From an uncultured Bacilli bacterium (GTDB lineage: Bacteria > Bacillota_I > Bacilli_A > RF39 > UBA660): DNA of 46,351 nt. The notes under the pieces were generated by a model that saw only the letters and a list, made by a program, of their open reading frames with translations, was not told where the DNA came from and ran no database searches. Both the position numbers and the translations under genes were made by a program. The stretch is from positions 1 to 46,351 of the forward strand of contig CALVRW010000008.1 in NCBI GenBank assembly GCA_944358795.1, written 5' to 3'. Shown here one piece after another: positions 23,256 through 27,526 of this stretch (position 1 is its first letter; each line of letters opens with the position of its first letter).

Positions 23256-24989
23256 ATGTTAAATATGAATCAGAAGTACGTAAGTGATTTTCCTAGTTTA
23301 ATGGAAGAATGGAATTATAAAAAGAATGAACAATTAAAATTAAATCCTTCTAAAATAAAAAAAGGAAGTGATAAAAAGGTATGGTGGAAATGTAAAGAGG
23401 GGCATGAGTGGATTGGAAGAGTTGCAAATAGAACGAAAGTAAAAAGGACAAAATGTCCTGTATGTTCTAATCGAGTAGTTGTAAAAGGAATTAACGATTT
23501 ATCAATAACTAGTCCGGAATTACTGAAAGAGTGGAATTATGAAAAAAATATTGGATTATCACCTTTTGCGTTTTCGAGGGGATCTGGGGTAAAAGTATGG
23601 TGGAAGTGTAAAGAAGGACATGAGTGGGAAGCAACAATTGTTTCAAGAAGTTGTGGTGGAAGAAATAAATTAGGTTCGGGATGTCCAATCTGTTCAAATA
23701 AGGTAATTGTAAAAGGAATTAATGATTTATCAACAACGAACCCAGAATTATTGGAAGAGTGGGATTATGAAAAAAATGTAAATATTTCTCCTTACGAAGT
23801 AAGTAGAGGAAGTCATCGAATCGTATGGTGGAAATGTAAAAAAGGGCATAGTTGGAAAGGGGCGATTTATAGTAGAACTTATGGAAGAGGGTGTGCACGC
23901 TGTTTCGCAGGATTACAAACATCTTTTCCAGAACAAGCAGTATTTTATTATTTGAAAAAAATTTATCATGACGCTATAAACAGGTACCAGTTTCAAGAAA
24001 AATATGAAATTGATATTTTTGTTCCAAGCTTAAAAATAGGAATAGAATATGATGGTAAATTTTATCATAAAAATAGTAAAAAGAAAGAAGAAATTAAAGA
24101 TGGTGTATTTGAACAAAATGATTTAACTGTTTGGAGAATCAAAGAAACGACAGCTTTAGAATTAAACTTTAACGTAAAGGGAAATGTGATATATTATTAT
24201 AGTGAATCTAATTATTCAAAATTAAATGATTTAATAAAATTTATATTGAAAACGATATTTCATAGAAGCATTGATATAAAGATTGATATTCAAGAGGATA
24301 GAATTGAAATTTTAAATAAGTATAAGACATATTTATTAAAAAATAGTTTGAAATCTTTATATCCTAACATTGTTCAACAATGGAATTATGATAAAAACAA
24401 AGGGTTAGATCCGGCATCATTTAGTAGAGGTTCTAATAATAAAGTATGGTGGAAATGCAAGAAAGGACATGAATGGCAAGATACCATTAGACATAGGACT
24501 ATTGAAAATCGGGGGTGTCCTGTTTGTTCTAATCGAAAAGTAATAACTGGAGTCAACGATATATTTACGGTGATGCCTAATTTATCAGACGAATGGAATT
24601 ATAAAAAAAATAAAGAAGTAAATCCATTATTATTAAGTTGTGGAAGCGATAAAAAAGTATGGTGGAAATGCAAAGAAGGTCATGAATGGCAAGCAAGAGT
24701 ATATCAAAGAAAAGAAGGTAGGAATTGTCCAAAATGTTCTAATAAAATTAGGACCATAAACTTAACTGCAACAAAATTAAAGAAGAATGGGTCACTATTA
24801 GATAATTTCCCAGAAATTGCTTGTGAATGGGATTATAATAAAAATACAATTTTACCAACAGAAATTTTATCAGCTAGTAGATATAGGGCTTGGTGGAAAT
24901 GTAAAAAGTGTAATTATGAGTGGCAAGCTTGTGTCTATTCTAGAAAATATGGTTGCGGTTGTCCAAGATGTGCTCATAAAGTAAAATAA
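23256..24989 (+). CDS. Zinc-ribbon (DUF4379) repeat protein with central Vsr-like nuclease domain
   Basis: The 577 residues hold six copies of a probable zinc-ribbon repeat. Each has the form EWNYxKN, then VWWKCKxGHEW, then a CPxCSN pair (WWKC near residues 42, 115, 190, 398, 468, 546). Three copies stand on each side of a central domain (about 220-330). That domain reads FPEQAVFYYL, EIDIFVPSLKIGIEYDGKFYH and TVWRIKE, the E, D, E-x-D/K pattern of Vsr or DUF559-type PD-(D/E)xK endonucleases. A DNA-binding, DNA-cutting role is likely, perhaps in defence, homing or repair; this is inferred from domains only. GTGAGGGAAT precedes the ATG. No methylase or transposase is adjacent. Confidence 0.8.
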   Translation: MLNMNQKYVSDFPSLMEEWNYKKNEQLKLNPSKIKKGSDKKVWWKCKEGHEWIGRVANRTKVKRTKCPVCSNRVVVKGINDLSITSPELLKEWNYEKNIGLSPFAFSRGSGVKVWWKCKEGHEWEATIVSRSCGGRNKLGSGCPICSNKVIVKGINDLSTTNPELLEEWDYEKNVNISPYEVSRGSHRIVWWKCKKGHSWKGAIYSRTYGRGCARCFAGLQTSFPEQAVFYYLKKIYHDAINRYQFQEKYEIDIFVPSLKIGIEYDGKFYHKNSKKKEEIKDGVFEQNDLTVWRIKETTALELNFNVKGNVIYYYSESNYSKLNDLIKFILKTIFHRSIDIKIDIQEDRIEILNKYKTYLLKNSLKSLYPNIVQQWNYDKNKGLDPASFSRGSNNKVWWKCKKGHEWQDTIRHRTIENRGCPVCSNRKVITGVNDIFTVMPNLSDEWNYKKNKEVNPLLLSCGSDKKVWWKCKEGHEWQARVYQRKEGRNCPKCSNKIRTINLTATKLKKNGSLLDNFPEIACEWDYNKNTILPTEILSASRYRAWWKCKKCNYEWQACVYSRKYGCGCPRCAHKVK

Positions 24990-25007: not shown

Positions 25008-25036
25008 TTTGTATTTATGACGGAGTATGCTATAAT
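25008..25036 (+). promoter_or_regulatory. Promoter of the ABC-F leader
   Basis: TATAAT at 25031-25036 has an extended TGC in front and a weak -35 (TTTGTA, 25008-25013). A second TATAAT lies at 25143-25148, after leader ORF 1. Confidence 0.55.
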
Positions 25037-25060
25037 AACAATAGAAAGAAGGAAGATGTA

Positions 25061-25111
25061 ATGGTAATAAATAGTCAATTTAAAATATTTATTAATAAGA
25101 TTATGGATTAG
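25061..25111 (+). CDS. Leader ORF 1 of the ABC-F gene (16 codons)
   Basis: ATG 25061 follows AGAAGGAAG at a suitable distance and encodes MVINSQFKIFINKIMD. It lies between the promoter and an intrinsic terminator ahead of an ABC-F gene, the usual place of a ribosome-stalling leader peptide. Its codons are ordinary, so the role rests on position. Confidence 0.45.
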   Translation: MVINSQFKIFINKIMD

Positions 25112-25150
25112 ATTGGTTATTTTTACGTTTACAATACAATGATATAATGA

Positions 25151-25195
25151 AAAAAAGACACATTCTATGACACCATAATCGAATGCGTCTTTTTT
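25151..25195 (+). terminator. Leader terminator (attenuator) before the ABC-F gene
   Basis: Fifteen-base arms AAAAAAGACACATTC and GAATGCGTCTTTTTT pair with one A-C mismatch across a 15-base loop and end in T6. It stands between leader ORF 1 and leader ORF 2, so reading past it would be needed to express the ABC-F gene from the upstream promoter. Confidence 0.7.
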
Positions 25196-25214
25196 ATATT
25201 TTGGAGGTGAAAAA

Positions 25215-25235
25215 ATGAATACATTAGTAAAATAA
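25215..25235 (+). CDS. Leader ORF 2 of the ABC-F gene (MNTLVK)
   Basis: A strong ribosome binding site (TTGGAGGTGAAAAA) precedes an ATG that encodes only MNTLVK before TAA. Such very short, well-initiated ORFs in front of resistance genes act as drug sensors. The stop is 5 bases from the first arm of the RNA switch at 25240-25275. Confidence 0.6.
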   Translation: MNTLVK

Positions 25236-25239
25236 GTTT

Positions 25240-25275
25240 GGCATAAACTTCGATTATGCCGGAAGGGAGGCATAA
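25240..25275 (+). promoter_or_regulatory. Three-arm RNA switch over the ABC-F ribosome binding site
   Basis: Arm a GGCATAA (25240-25246), arm b TTATGCC (25254-25260) and arm c GGCATAA (25269-25275) are exact: b can pair with a or with c. The b:c hairpin puts the GGGAGG site (25265-25270) partly in its loop and partly in its stem. The a:b hairpin leaves it free. Confidence 0.65.
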
Positions 25276-25276
25276 T

Positions 25277-26791
25277 ATGTTAGAAATAAGAAATTTAAGT
25301 ATAAAAGTGAATCATAAATATATCATAAAAGATTTATCATTGACATTAAATAAAGGTGATAAATTAGCAATTATTGGTGAAGAAGGAAATGGAAAGTCGA
25401 CATTATTTAAAGTCATTCTAGGAATTTGTTCGTTTGCAGAAGTAGAAGGAACTATTAATTTAAAAAGAAATAAAATAGGTTATTTAGAACAAACCATGCA
25501 AGAACAATATTTAAATCAAACTGGATTTGAATATTTATTTCAAAATGAAGAGGATTACTACAATAAAATTAATCTTTTTTATAAATTTATCAATCAATTG
25601 CAATTAAATGATGATTTATTAGATAGAAAAATAAATACTTTATCAGGAGGAGAAAAAGTAAAAATTCGTATTTTAAAATTACTATTAGAAGAAAATGATA
25701 TTTTACTATTAGATGAACCTACCAATGATTTAGATATTGAAACGTTAAGATGGTTAGAAAATTTTATGAATACAATTGATAAACCAATTATGTATGTGTC
25801 TCATGATGAAACATTACTATCTAAGACTGCCAATCAAATATTGCATCTAGAGCAAATTAAACATAAAACAGAATGTAAGCATACTTTATTAAAGATAGAT
25901 TATGATACCTATGTAGAAAGAAGATTGAATGCATTGAAGAAACAAACTCAAGTAGCAAAATCAGAAAAGAGAAAGTTTCAAAAACAACAAGAAAAATTAA
26001 ATCAAGTGATGCAGAAGGTGGAACATCAACAAAATACAATTTCTAGAAGTGATCCTCATGGTGCTAGATTATTAAAAAAGAAAATGCATGCTTTAAAATC
26101 ACAAGAAAGAAAATTAGATAAAACAGAGTTAACAGAAACACCAGACGTAGAAGAAAGTATATATTTCTTTTTTGAAGATGTTGCAATTCCAAAATCAAAG
26201 AACATACTTCATTTAGTGATTCCAGAATTAAAGGTAGGAGAAAAAGTTTTATCTGAAAAAATAGAATTAGAAGTAATTGGGAATACCCATTTATGTATTG
26301 TTGGAAAGAATGGAGTAGGGAAGTCTACATTAATGAAAGAAATTTATAAAAATTTACAAGAAAGAACTGATATAAAAGTAGGCTATATGCCTCAAAATTA
26401 TGAGGATATTTTACATGATGATGAGCAAGTATTAGAATTTATCGCTCCAAGTAACAATAAAGAAGATATTACAAAGGCAAGAAAGTATTTAGGGAATATG
26501 AATATTACAAGGGATGAAATGGAAGGAAAAATAAAAGATTTGAGTAATGGGACAAAAGCAAAACTAATTCTTATAAAATTAGTGTTAGATCAGTGTAATG
26601 TATTAGTATTAGATGAACCAACCAGAAACGTTAGTCCCTTATCCAATCCTGTGATTAGAAAGGTATTAAAAGAATATCAGGGAACCATTATTAGTGTTTC
26701 ACATGATAGAAAATATATAATGGAAGTAATAGATTGTTTATACCAGTTAACTGAAAATGGATTAGAAAAATATAATATAGACACATTATGA
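25277..26791 (+). CDS. ABC-F family protein (ribosome-protection type)
   Basis: The 504-residue protein has two ABC ATPase domains and no membrane segments. Domain 1: Walker A GEEGNGKST, signature LSGGEKVK, Walker B LLLDEPTNDLD. A charged interdomain linker follows (about residues 200-290, rich in Lys, Gln and Glu). Domain 2: Walker A GKNGVGKST, degenerate signature LSNGTKAK, Walker B VLVLDEPTRNVSP. Members of this class dislodge macrolides, lincosamides, pleuromutilins or related drugs from the ribosome. Start ATG 25277 behind GGGAGG is preferred; ATG 25256 upstream has no binding site and lies in the RNA switch. The two leader ORFs and switch strongly suggest antibiotic-responsive control. 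The drug range cannot be predicted. Confidence 0.88.
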   Translation: MLEIRNLSIKVNHKYIIKDLSLTLNKGDKLAIIGEEGNGKSTLFKVILGICSFAEVEGTINLKRNKIGYLEQTMQEQYLNQTGFEYLFQNEEDYYNKINLFYKFINQLQLNDDLLDRKINTLSGGEKVKIRILKLLLEENDILLLDEPTNDLDIETLRWLENFMNTIDKPIMYVSHDETLLSKTANQILHLEQIKHKTECKHTLLKIDYDTYVERRLNALKKQTQVAKSEKRKFQKQQEKLNQVMQKVEHQQNTISRSDPHGARLLKKKMHALKSQERKLDKTELTETPDVEESIYFFFEDVAIPKSKNILHLVIPELKVGEKVLSEKIELEVIGNTHLCIVGKNGVGKSTLMKEIYKNLQERTDIKVGYMPQNYEDILHDDEQVLEFIAPSNNKEDITKARKYLGNMNITRDEMEGKIKDLSNGTKAKLILIKLVLDQCNVLVLDEPTRNVSPLSNPVIRKVLKEYQGTIISVSHDRKYIMEVIDCLYQLTENGLEKYNIDTL

Positions 26792-26884: not shown

Positions 26885-27526
26885 ATGGAATTAGTTAATG
26901 ATAAGAAAGTTCAAGAAGAAAAAACGTATGGTTGGGATGTGATAACGGAAGAATGTGAAAGAGTATATCCTAATCAGAAAAATACAAAACATTATGGAAC
27001 ATTGATTAACTGGCAATTTGGAGGTAATGATCCACTTGAAGGAATCAGTATTTATGATGGTGGTGATTACTGGCATTTTGTAACATACGGATTATCAGAA
27101 TTATACGAAAAAGAAACAGATAATCCAGAGATTAGTGGTTATGGGATGGAATTTACTTTGAAACTTAAAAAAGATCAGTATGAAGATGAAGAAGCAGAGT
27201 TAAAATGCATTTGTGGAATTTTACAATCGATTGCTAGAATTACATTTACACAAGGAGAATTATTTAAAGCTTATGAATATTTATATACTGGTCAAACACA
27301 AGGAATGGATGCAAATAGAAAGTCGCATATAACTGGTTTTATAACAATACCAGATTCAGAATTGAAAACTATTGATACTCCAAATGGGAAAGTTAATTTT
27401 GTAGAATTTATTGGTGTTACGAATGAGGAATTATTAGCAATTCAAAAGAAAGAAATAGATGTAAGAACTCTATATAAAAAGTTAGGAAATGATTTAACCG
27501 ATTATAATAGACAATCTGTTATATAA
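26885..27526 (+). CDS. Suppressor-of-fused (SUFU) domain protein
   Basis: The 213 residues match the bacterial SUFU-domain family. Recognisable stretches are YGTLINWQFGGNDPLEGISIY, YWHFVTYGLSELYEKE, YGMEFTLKL and HITGFITIPD. The protein is soluble, without a signal peptide. Bacterial SUFU proteins are often found with toxins or as immunity-like partners, but no toxin gene is adjacent here. The gene has its own promoter and terminator. AGAAAGGATTT precedes ATG 26885. Confidence 0.85.
   Translation: MELVNDKKVQEEKTYGWDVITEECERVYPNQKNTKHYGTLINWQFGGNDPLEGISIYDGGDYWHFVTYGLSELYEKETDNPEISGYGMEFTLKLKKDQYEDEEAELKCICGILQSIARITFTQGELFKAYEYLYTGQTQGMDANRKSHITGFITIPDSELKTIDTPNGKVNFVEFIGVTNEELLAIQKKEIDVRTLYKKLGNDLTDYNRQSVI

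Follow-up and report, generated by a model that had tools for sequence, protein, structure and literature searches.

The leader of an intrinsic ABC-F gene in an uncultured Bacilli bacterium can be read as a two-stage attenuator in which each stage has its own upstream ORF (uORF) and both stages would be opened by drugs that arrest ribosomes at start codons; we put the probability of this reading at roughly 60%. The gene lies on the forward strand of the window, i.e., the whole stretch of 46,351 nucleotides that was analyzed, and its leader (25008–25279) is made up of a promoter, uORF1, an intrinsic terminator, uORF2, three short arms (a, b and c) and a Shine-Dalgarno (SD) sequence overlapping arm c. 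An earlier note on this DNA had singled out this leader and proposed its control by a ribosome on the short uORF2: all the elements that it named are present, the fold of 25150–25300 stands out from shuffled sequences (z -3.7, with 0/200 shuffles as stable), and the block of uORF2 and arms recurs in 60 leaders, whose conservation and covariation support such control well.

The ABC-F gene and its surroundings

The gene (25277–26791, + strand) codes for a ribosomal-protection-type ABC-F protein of 504 amino acids with the tandem ABC_tran domains of such proteins, scoring 393.3 bits against the NCBIfam model NF000355 (cut-off 380). All the named NCBIfam subfamily models (Vga, Msr, Lsa, CplR, Sal and OptrA) score far below their cut-offs on it, the CplR model, for instance, reaching 216 vs 780. 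Judged by its sequence, drug resistance is the putative role of the protein. The source genome is small (1.17 Mb) and AT-rich, and its relatives are MAGs labelled Bacilli, Tenericutes or Erysipelotrichaceae. The product of the gene upstream (23256–24989) has DUF4379 treble-clef zinc fingers in six stretches and weakly matches the nuclease-like MTES_1575, and that of the gene downstream (26885–27526) has a SUFU (suppressor of fused) domain.

The leader begins with a promoter, P1 (25009–25036, + strand), comprising TTGTAT, a 16-nt spacer and the extended -10 element TGCTATAAT (25028–25036). P1 falls below threshold in a scan with the consensus, and its call rests on the recurrence of the extended -10, as TG-N-TATAAT or TATAGT, 5' of uORF1 in the related leaders L009, L010 and L025. 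A second promoter with the -10-like TATAAT at 25143 was considered and discarded, as this word is not kept in L009/L010. At the other end, the SD of the ABC-F gene (GGAAGGGAGG, 25261–25270, + strand) includes GGGAGG (25265–25270). An in-frame ATG inside arm b (25256–25276) would add MPEGRHN to the protein; since this ATG is out of frame in L009, it is probably not the ABC-F start.

A uORF and three arms conserved in a family of uncultured Bacilli

The lower stage (stage 2) starts with uORF2, which is preceded by the SD GGAGGTG, codes for MNTLVK, the six codons pointed out in the earlier note, and ends in TAA (25203–25235 with its SD, + strand). Its counterparts in the 60 distinct leaders, almost all from one family, are 3–9 codons long, and 54/60 have the exact SD GAGGTG. 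Across these relatives uORF2 is mostly of the MR[I/M] type known from cplR, with arginine at position 2 in 30/40 and isoleucine as the third residue in 17/40; the window's own uORF2 begins with MNT, and in genome G162 (L116/L160) it consists of MRI and a stop, which is the exact cplR peptide, with the arms moved nearer to match and an a:b stem of 9 bp. The block reads, in order, GAGGTG, the 3–9 codon ORF and GGCATAA ACTTTGA TTATGCC; then comes a variable spacer that includes the SD, and a second GGCATAA closes the block at the start codon.

The ABC-F orthologues with this block are found at 52–78% identity. Searches with a covariance model recovered the block once per genome in 51/385 genomes of the order; in the class the sole match outside the family was G652, and in the phylum the window's own genome was the sole match. 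The ORF 3' of the block is an ABC-F orthologue in 29/29 loci checked by tblastn, that of L159 being a remnant, and none of the order, class or phylum searches placed the block before another gene. In L159 (G339, 98–178) the leader runs directly into the last ~70 ABC-F residues, by an internal deletion or an assembly join. Clostridial relatives at 43–49% identity showed no three-arm element; some of them have short uORFs, mostly about 190–300 nt upstream. The divergent orthologues L165 and L166 (G020, G174) keep the SD and an MRI uORF with the arms absent; L166 has CTTCTAT among its uORF codons, and direct pairing of this word with ATAGAAG at the SD would be a possible, simpler design. Carriage by a mobile element was rejected: viral contigs lack the pattern of the arms with the S1 helix (see below), and plasmids yielded no close ABC-F.

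Two exclusive pairings of the arms

Arm a (GGCAUAA, 25240–25246, the 5' strand of helix S2), arm b (UUAUGCC, 25254–25260) and arm c (GGCAUAA, 25269–25275), all on the + strand, recur together with the SD in the 60 leaders; arm c overlaps the SD and ends 1 nt before the start codon. The earlier note had arm b pairing with either side, and this holds up in the comparison: the a:b (ON) and b:c (OFF) helices are mutually exclusive, one of them occludes the SD, and both are conserved. The b:c helix has 99.0% of its cells paired, with two-sided change. Both pairings are retained where C-G has become U-A in all three arms (GGGUAUAAA/UUUAUACCC/GGUAUAU in L158 and L161), and L153 has GACAUAA/UUAUGUC with a G.U pair to arm c. 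Arm b hardly varies because it must match both a and c. A minus-strand terminator-like match over a:b was set aside, since both flanking genes are encoded on the + strand, which itself has no T run there.

The two hairpins are nearly equal in energy, with about -6.4 kcal/mol for a:b and -6.1 to -8.5 kcal/mol for b:c. When only nested pairs are folded, b:c is preferred in the majority of leaders, with P(a:b) being 0.01 in the window's leader and having a median of 0.18 over 59 leaders; therefore, the predicted ON state hinges on the energy of S1 and the pseudoknot and on the order of folding. Some of the SD stays unpaired in the b:c loop, so that closure may be partial.

A pseudoknot reinforcing the ON form

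The earlier note had a:b as a plain hairpin; the pairing is real, but the note missed a further helix, S1, by which, according to the covariation, the usual ON form becomes a pseudoknot. Its 5' strand AAGU (25234–25237, + strand), found next to or overlapping the uORF2 stop across leaders (overlapping it in the window), pairs with ACUU in the a-b loop (25247–25250, + strand). With a:b as the second stem, an L1 of 1–2 nt, an L2 of 0 nt and an L3 of usually 3–4 nt, the dimensions are those of the canonical layout of an H-type pseudoknot, of which the a:b hairpin thus appears usually to be a part. Together, a:b and S1 have 96.1% of cells paired, vs 20–39% in slid controls, and 7 two-sided changes, with 0/500 shuffles as high, a comparison that ignores relatedness. 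S1 is kept by paired change as UAGU:GCUA in L112 and AAGU:GCUU in L156. Moreover, AAGU persists whichever of the three frames it occupies with respect to uORF2 (37, 8 and 3 leaders), which argues for selection on the RNA and not on the peptide.

Leaders that have lost S1 have a reinforced a:b stem, of 8–9 bp or with a tetraloop (Fisher p 7e-7, again ignoring relatedness; L031 and the longer arms of L158/L161 judged by eye). Kinship was addressed by a quick tree, in which at least four S1-less cases (L024, L026, L031 and L104) nest separately among S1 leaders, the inner branches of this tree being weakly supported.

Spacing and the proposed polarity of stage 2

Counted from the A of the uORF2 AUG, arm a starts 17–29 nt downstream (17–26 nt in 60 leaders, 29 nt in L158/L161), and the end of the uORF2 stop falls anywhere from 7 nt within arm a to 6 nt short of it (60 leaders). 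Toeprints and footprints place the front edge of a ribosome at a start codon at +16 to +18 (PMC9226507, PMC12121999); with arm a at 17 or beyond, a ribosome frozen at the start would therefore miss it and a terminating one would touch it. This geometry fits the repression by leader translation that the earlier note proposed and suggests a polarity in which finished translation of uORF2 closes the SD and arrest at its start codon opens it. We favor, at somewhat better than even odds, a ribosome-reset pseudoknot switch that is ON by default, is turned OFF by each completed round of uORF2 translation and is protected in its ON form by start arrest. At first, arm a would capture b, the hairpin would be closed into the H-type pseudoknot by AAGU:ACUU and the ABC-F SD would be free. 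Without drug, a ribosome reaching the uORF2 stop would unfold the pseudoknot and sit on arm a, whereupon b would pair with c and close the SD. With drug, a ribosome frozen at the uORF2 start would end 5' of the pseudoknot, so that b would stay with a and the gene would be translated. The physiological signal is more likely to be arrest at the uORF start codon than the loss of initiation put forward in the earlier note. If this switch operates as proposed, uORF2 is a repressor whose deletion would give constitutive expression, drugs acting later in elongation could not induce, and the RNA would report where ribosomes stop on the mRNA.

This prediction is the opposite of the published outcome for cplR and vmlR, in which removal of the uORF start abolishes induction (PMC10201436, PMC9226507), and those knock-outs speak for the classical polarity, which we regard as possible though rather unlikely for stage 2. 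Here the resting RNA would be in the b:c form whatever uORF2 does, a ribosome arrested within uORF2 would free arm a to capture b, e.g., by masking a partner of a that lies upstream or by keeping a close by, and the uORF would be needed for induction, as it is in cplR, vmlR and ermC. The preference of nested folding for b:c in the window's leader also fits such a polarity, as do the words TTATG or TTATGC in the uORF2 of L015, L018, L032 and L137, which could pair with arm a and might be a fourth arm in some lineages. However, these words are scattered, and a conserved fourth arm embedded in the uORF was accordingly rejected: the 60 leaders have neither a conserved partner of a in the uORF2/SD region nor a conserved fourth arm of the ermC kind. 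Further, the a:b pairing persists and is strengthened by S1, by extra stem length or by a tetraloop, as though its task were to outlast b:c without help, and the stop codon is held beside arm a, which the classical model does not require.

A predicted transcription attenuator in the upper stage

The upper stage (stage 1) precedes this switch in the window and has the parts of a vmlR-type attenuator: a uORF overlapping an anti-antiterminator (AAT), a competing antiterminator and an intrinsic terminator. On account of these it is predicted to be a transcription attenuator of that design. The 16-codon ORF and the terminator had been recognized in the earlier note, which overlooked the AAT and the antiterminator. 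The ORF, uORF1, with the SD AGGAAG and the stop TAG, reads MVINSQFKIFINKIMD (25050–25111, ORF 25061–25111, + strand), and akin peptides are found in L009 and L010 (MVINNQFKNFIYKIMD), L112 (MLINNTFKQFNINMF) and L025 (MRNNNQQNKKEIFHYVLD). The terminator (25150–25195, + strand) consists of the stem GACACATTC...GAATGCGTC and a T run (25157–25195); terminators of related sequence lie 41–46 nt 5' of arm a in six leaders (the window's, L009, L010, L025, L094 and L112).

The 5' strand of the AAT (25064–25079, + strand) lies within codons 2–7 of uORF1 and pairs with 25109–25126, just 3' of the uORF1 stop, in a predicted duplex of -12.6 kcal/mol (shuffle p 0.004), the core of the 3' strand being ATTGGTTATTT (25112–25122, + strand). 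The TTATTT in this core matches the NusG pause motif TTNTTT, as a motif match only, and is lost in L010 and L025. The AAT pairing is present in the window's leader, L009, L010 and L025 and was not found in L094 or L112, i.e., in 4/6 terminator-bearing leaders. The antiterminator is formed by the end and stop of uORF1 (GATTATGG followed by TAGA, 25099–25112, + strand), among the most conserved columns of alignment A3, and by the terminator apex TCTAT...CCATAATC (25164–25180, + strand). It is the MFE in 6/6 terminator-bearing leaders, each pre-terminator RNA being folded independently; they share a helix of AUUAUG..UUAGA on UCUAU..CAUAAU, whose columns are among the best conserved and which L094 holds via two G.U pairs (CGUGAU). 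Against shuffles, the antiterminator fold has a z of -3.5 in the window and near 0 in L009/L010, so that its predicted status is supported by the agreement among leaders, the individual folds not all being exceptional. The fold of 25043–25196 reaches z -3.6 vs shuffles, and the whole stage 1 RNA of the window is bistable, with the antiterminator as the MFE and the AAT with the terminator as the centroid.

In the absence of drug, ribosomes would traverse uORF1, the AAT would form behind them and RNA polymerase would halt at 25190–25195. With drug, a ribosome arrested at the uORF1 start would cover the AAT strand, letting the uORF1 end pair with the terminator apex and transcription go on. Alternatively, the upper terminator might only end transcription of the upstream gene, leaving regulation to stage 2. 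Such a role, which we think improbable, agrees with the lack of uORF1 and the attenuator in most relatives, several of which have an ordinary terminator at that place; it is countered by the promoter and related uORF that stand between the upstream gene and the terminator in the window, L009, L010 and L025, and by the identical antiterminator predicted in 6/6 leaders. Stage 1 is rare (3/385 genomes of the order) and separable from stage 2. An additional match in G231, between unrelated genes, was dismissed as a chance terminator. L094 (G151) has lost arms a, b and c, of which AAACTTTGAT is the remnant, but still has uORF1 and the terminator as well as an MRI uORF. As the word AUUAUG/CAUAAU is common to both stages, cross-pairing between the layers is possible; CATAATCGAA in the terminator (25174–25183) is perfectly complementary over 10 bp to 25249–25258 with arm b, at full length only in the window.

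Minor alternatives and comparison with known leaders

Compact H-type pseudoknots upstream of an SD are the layout of small riboswitches, and stage 2 might likewise bind a ligand or protein, with uORF2 merely loading ribosomes or protecting the mRNA; this is most improbable, in that L1 and L3 vary, repeated loss of S1 has left the switch in place, the uORF is conserved together with its strong SD and the spacing, and Rfam yields nothing for the leader at the gathering score and nothing credible at lower scores. Equally faint is the chance that ribosomes ending uORF2, a short uORF with a good SD near the main start, reinitiate 41 nt further on, at the start of the ABC-F gene, with the hairpins as tuners, for the ABC-F gene has its own SD, and the invariant arm c, the triple covariation and the start-codon-sized spacing would be left unexplained.

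Among the closest known counterparts of the two-stage attenuator are other leaders of ABC-F genes. The vmlR leader of Bacillus subtilis, 219 nt long as against about 234 nt from the inferred start in the window, has a very short uORF sensing arrested initiation, an AAT, an antiterminator, a terminator and an extra SD-sequestering hairpin (PMC9226507). Unlike it, the window has a separate uORF for each stage, a uORF1 of 16 codons whose end is the antiterminator strand, and a three-arm, usually pseudoknotted, switch in stage 2. The cplR leader of Clostridioides difficile shares the MR[I/M] start of most uORF2 peptides in the relatives, the combination of transcriptional and translational attenuation, and the sequestered SD (PMC10201436). 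However, its single far-upstream uORF controls a terminator that sequesters the SD, whereas the MR(I)-type uORF of the block is about 60 nt 5' of the gene, the terminator (25157–25195) is upstream of uORF2, the ABC-F SD is paired by b:c with no T run, and arm a is a dedicated competitor. Lincosamides and pleuromutilins arrest ribosomes at starts and induce vmlR and cplR via their short uORFs (PMC9226507, PMC10201436). Both stages of the window's leader would sense start arrest, and therefore both should respond to initiation-stalling drugs: pleuromutilins, lincosamides and streptogramin A, which trap initiating ribosomes, would open both.

Attenuation of the ermC type similarly has a leader peptide, alternative hairpins and an SD exposed on induction (PMC10219788), but the window has three arms and not four, the SD is predicted to be closed, and not opened, by a ribosome near the end of the uORF, and a macrolide-type tunnel stall would probably need a longer uORF. 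The idea of a reversed ermC logic put forward at the outset is thus apt for the geometry of the lower layer; the outcome, induction by drug, is the usual one, and the upper layer follows the logic of vmlR. The dual attenuators of mefA/msrD also place two leader peptides, one a hexapeptide (MYLIFM), in one ABC-F operon; in contrast, both are transcriptional and precede different genes, and erythromycin causes stalling at the stop of the hexapeptide (PMC10314930). The toiL-topAI leader of Escherichia coli, which is not of an ABC-F gene, likewise has a uORF sensing start-codon arrest and an SD-occluding structure, but there the stalled ribosome breaks the repressive hairpin directly and the second layer is Rho-dependent (PMC12121999).

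Implications

Several pieces of this leader are already known, namely a start-arrest-sensing uORF, control by AAT, antiterminator and terminator, SD sequestration and MR(I) uORFs. The novelty lies in the assignment of a separate uORF to each of the two stages of a single ABC-F leader and in a conserved translational switch that has three arms, is usually pseudoknotted and appears by its spacing to gauge the progress of the ribosome; our literature search found no paper describing a two-uORF, two-stage ABC-F leader with a three-arm switch. The inducible ABC-F leaders known so far place one uORF over coupled attenuators, whereas the window has two uORFs which, by way of two separable RNA modules, would sense one and the same stress, most relatives having stage 2 only and L094 having stage 1 with the arms lost. 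In stage 2, a pseudoknot and its distance from the start codon would tell start-codon arrest from completed translation. The leader also offers a handle for finding intrinsic resistance that is inducible in a large gut-type lineage of uncultured bacteria.
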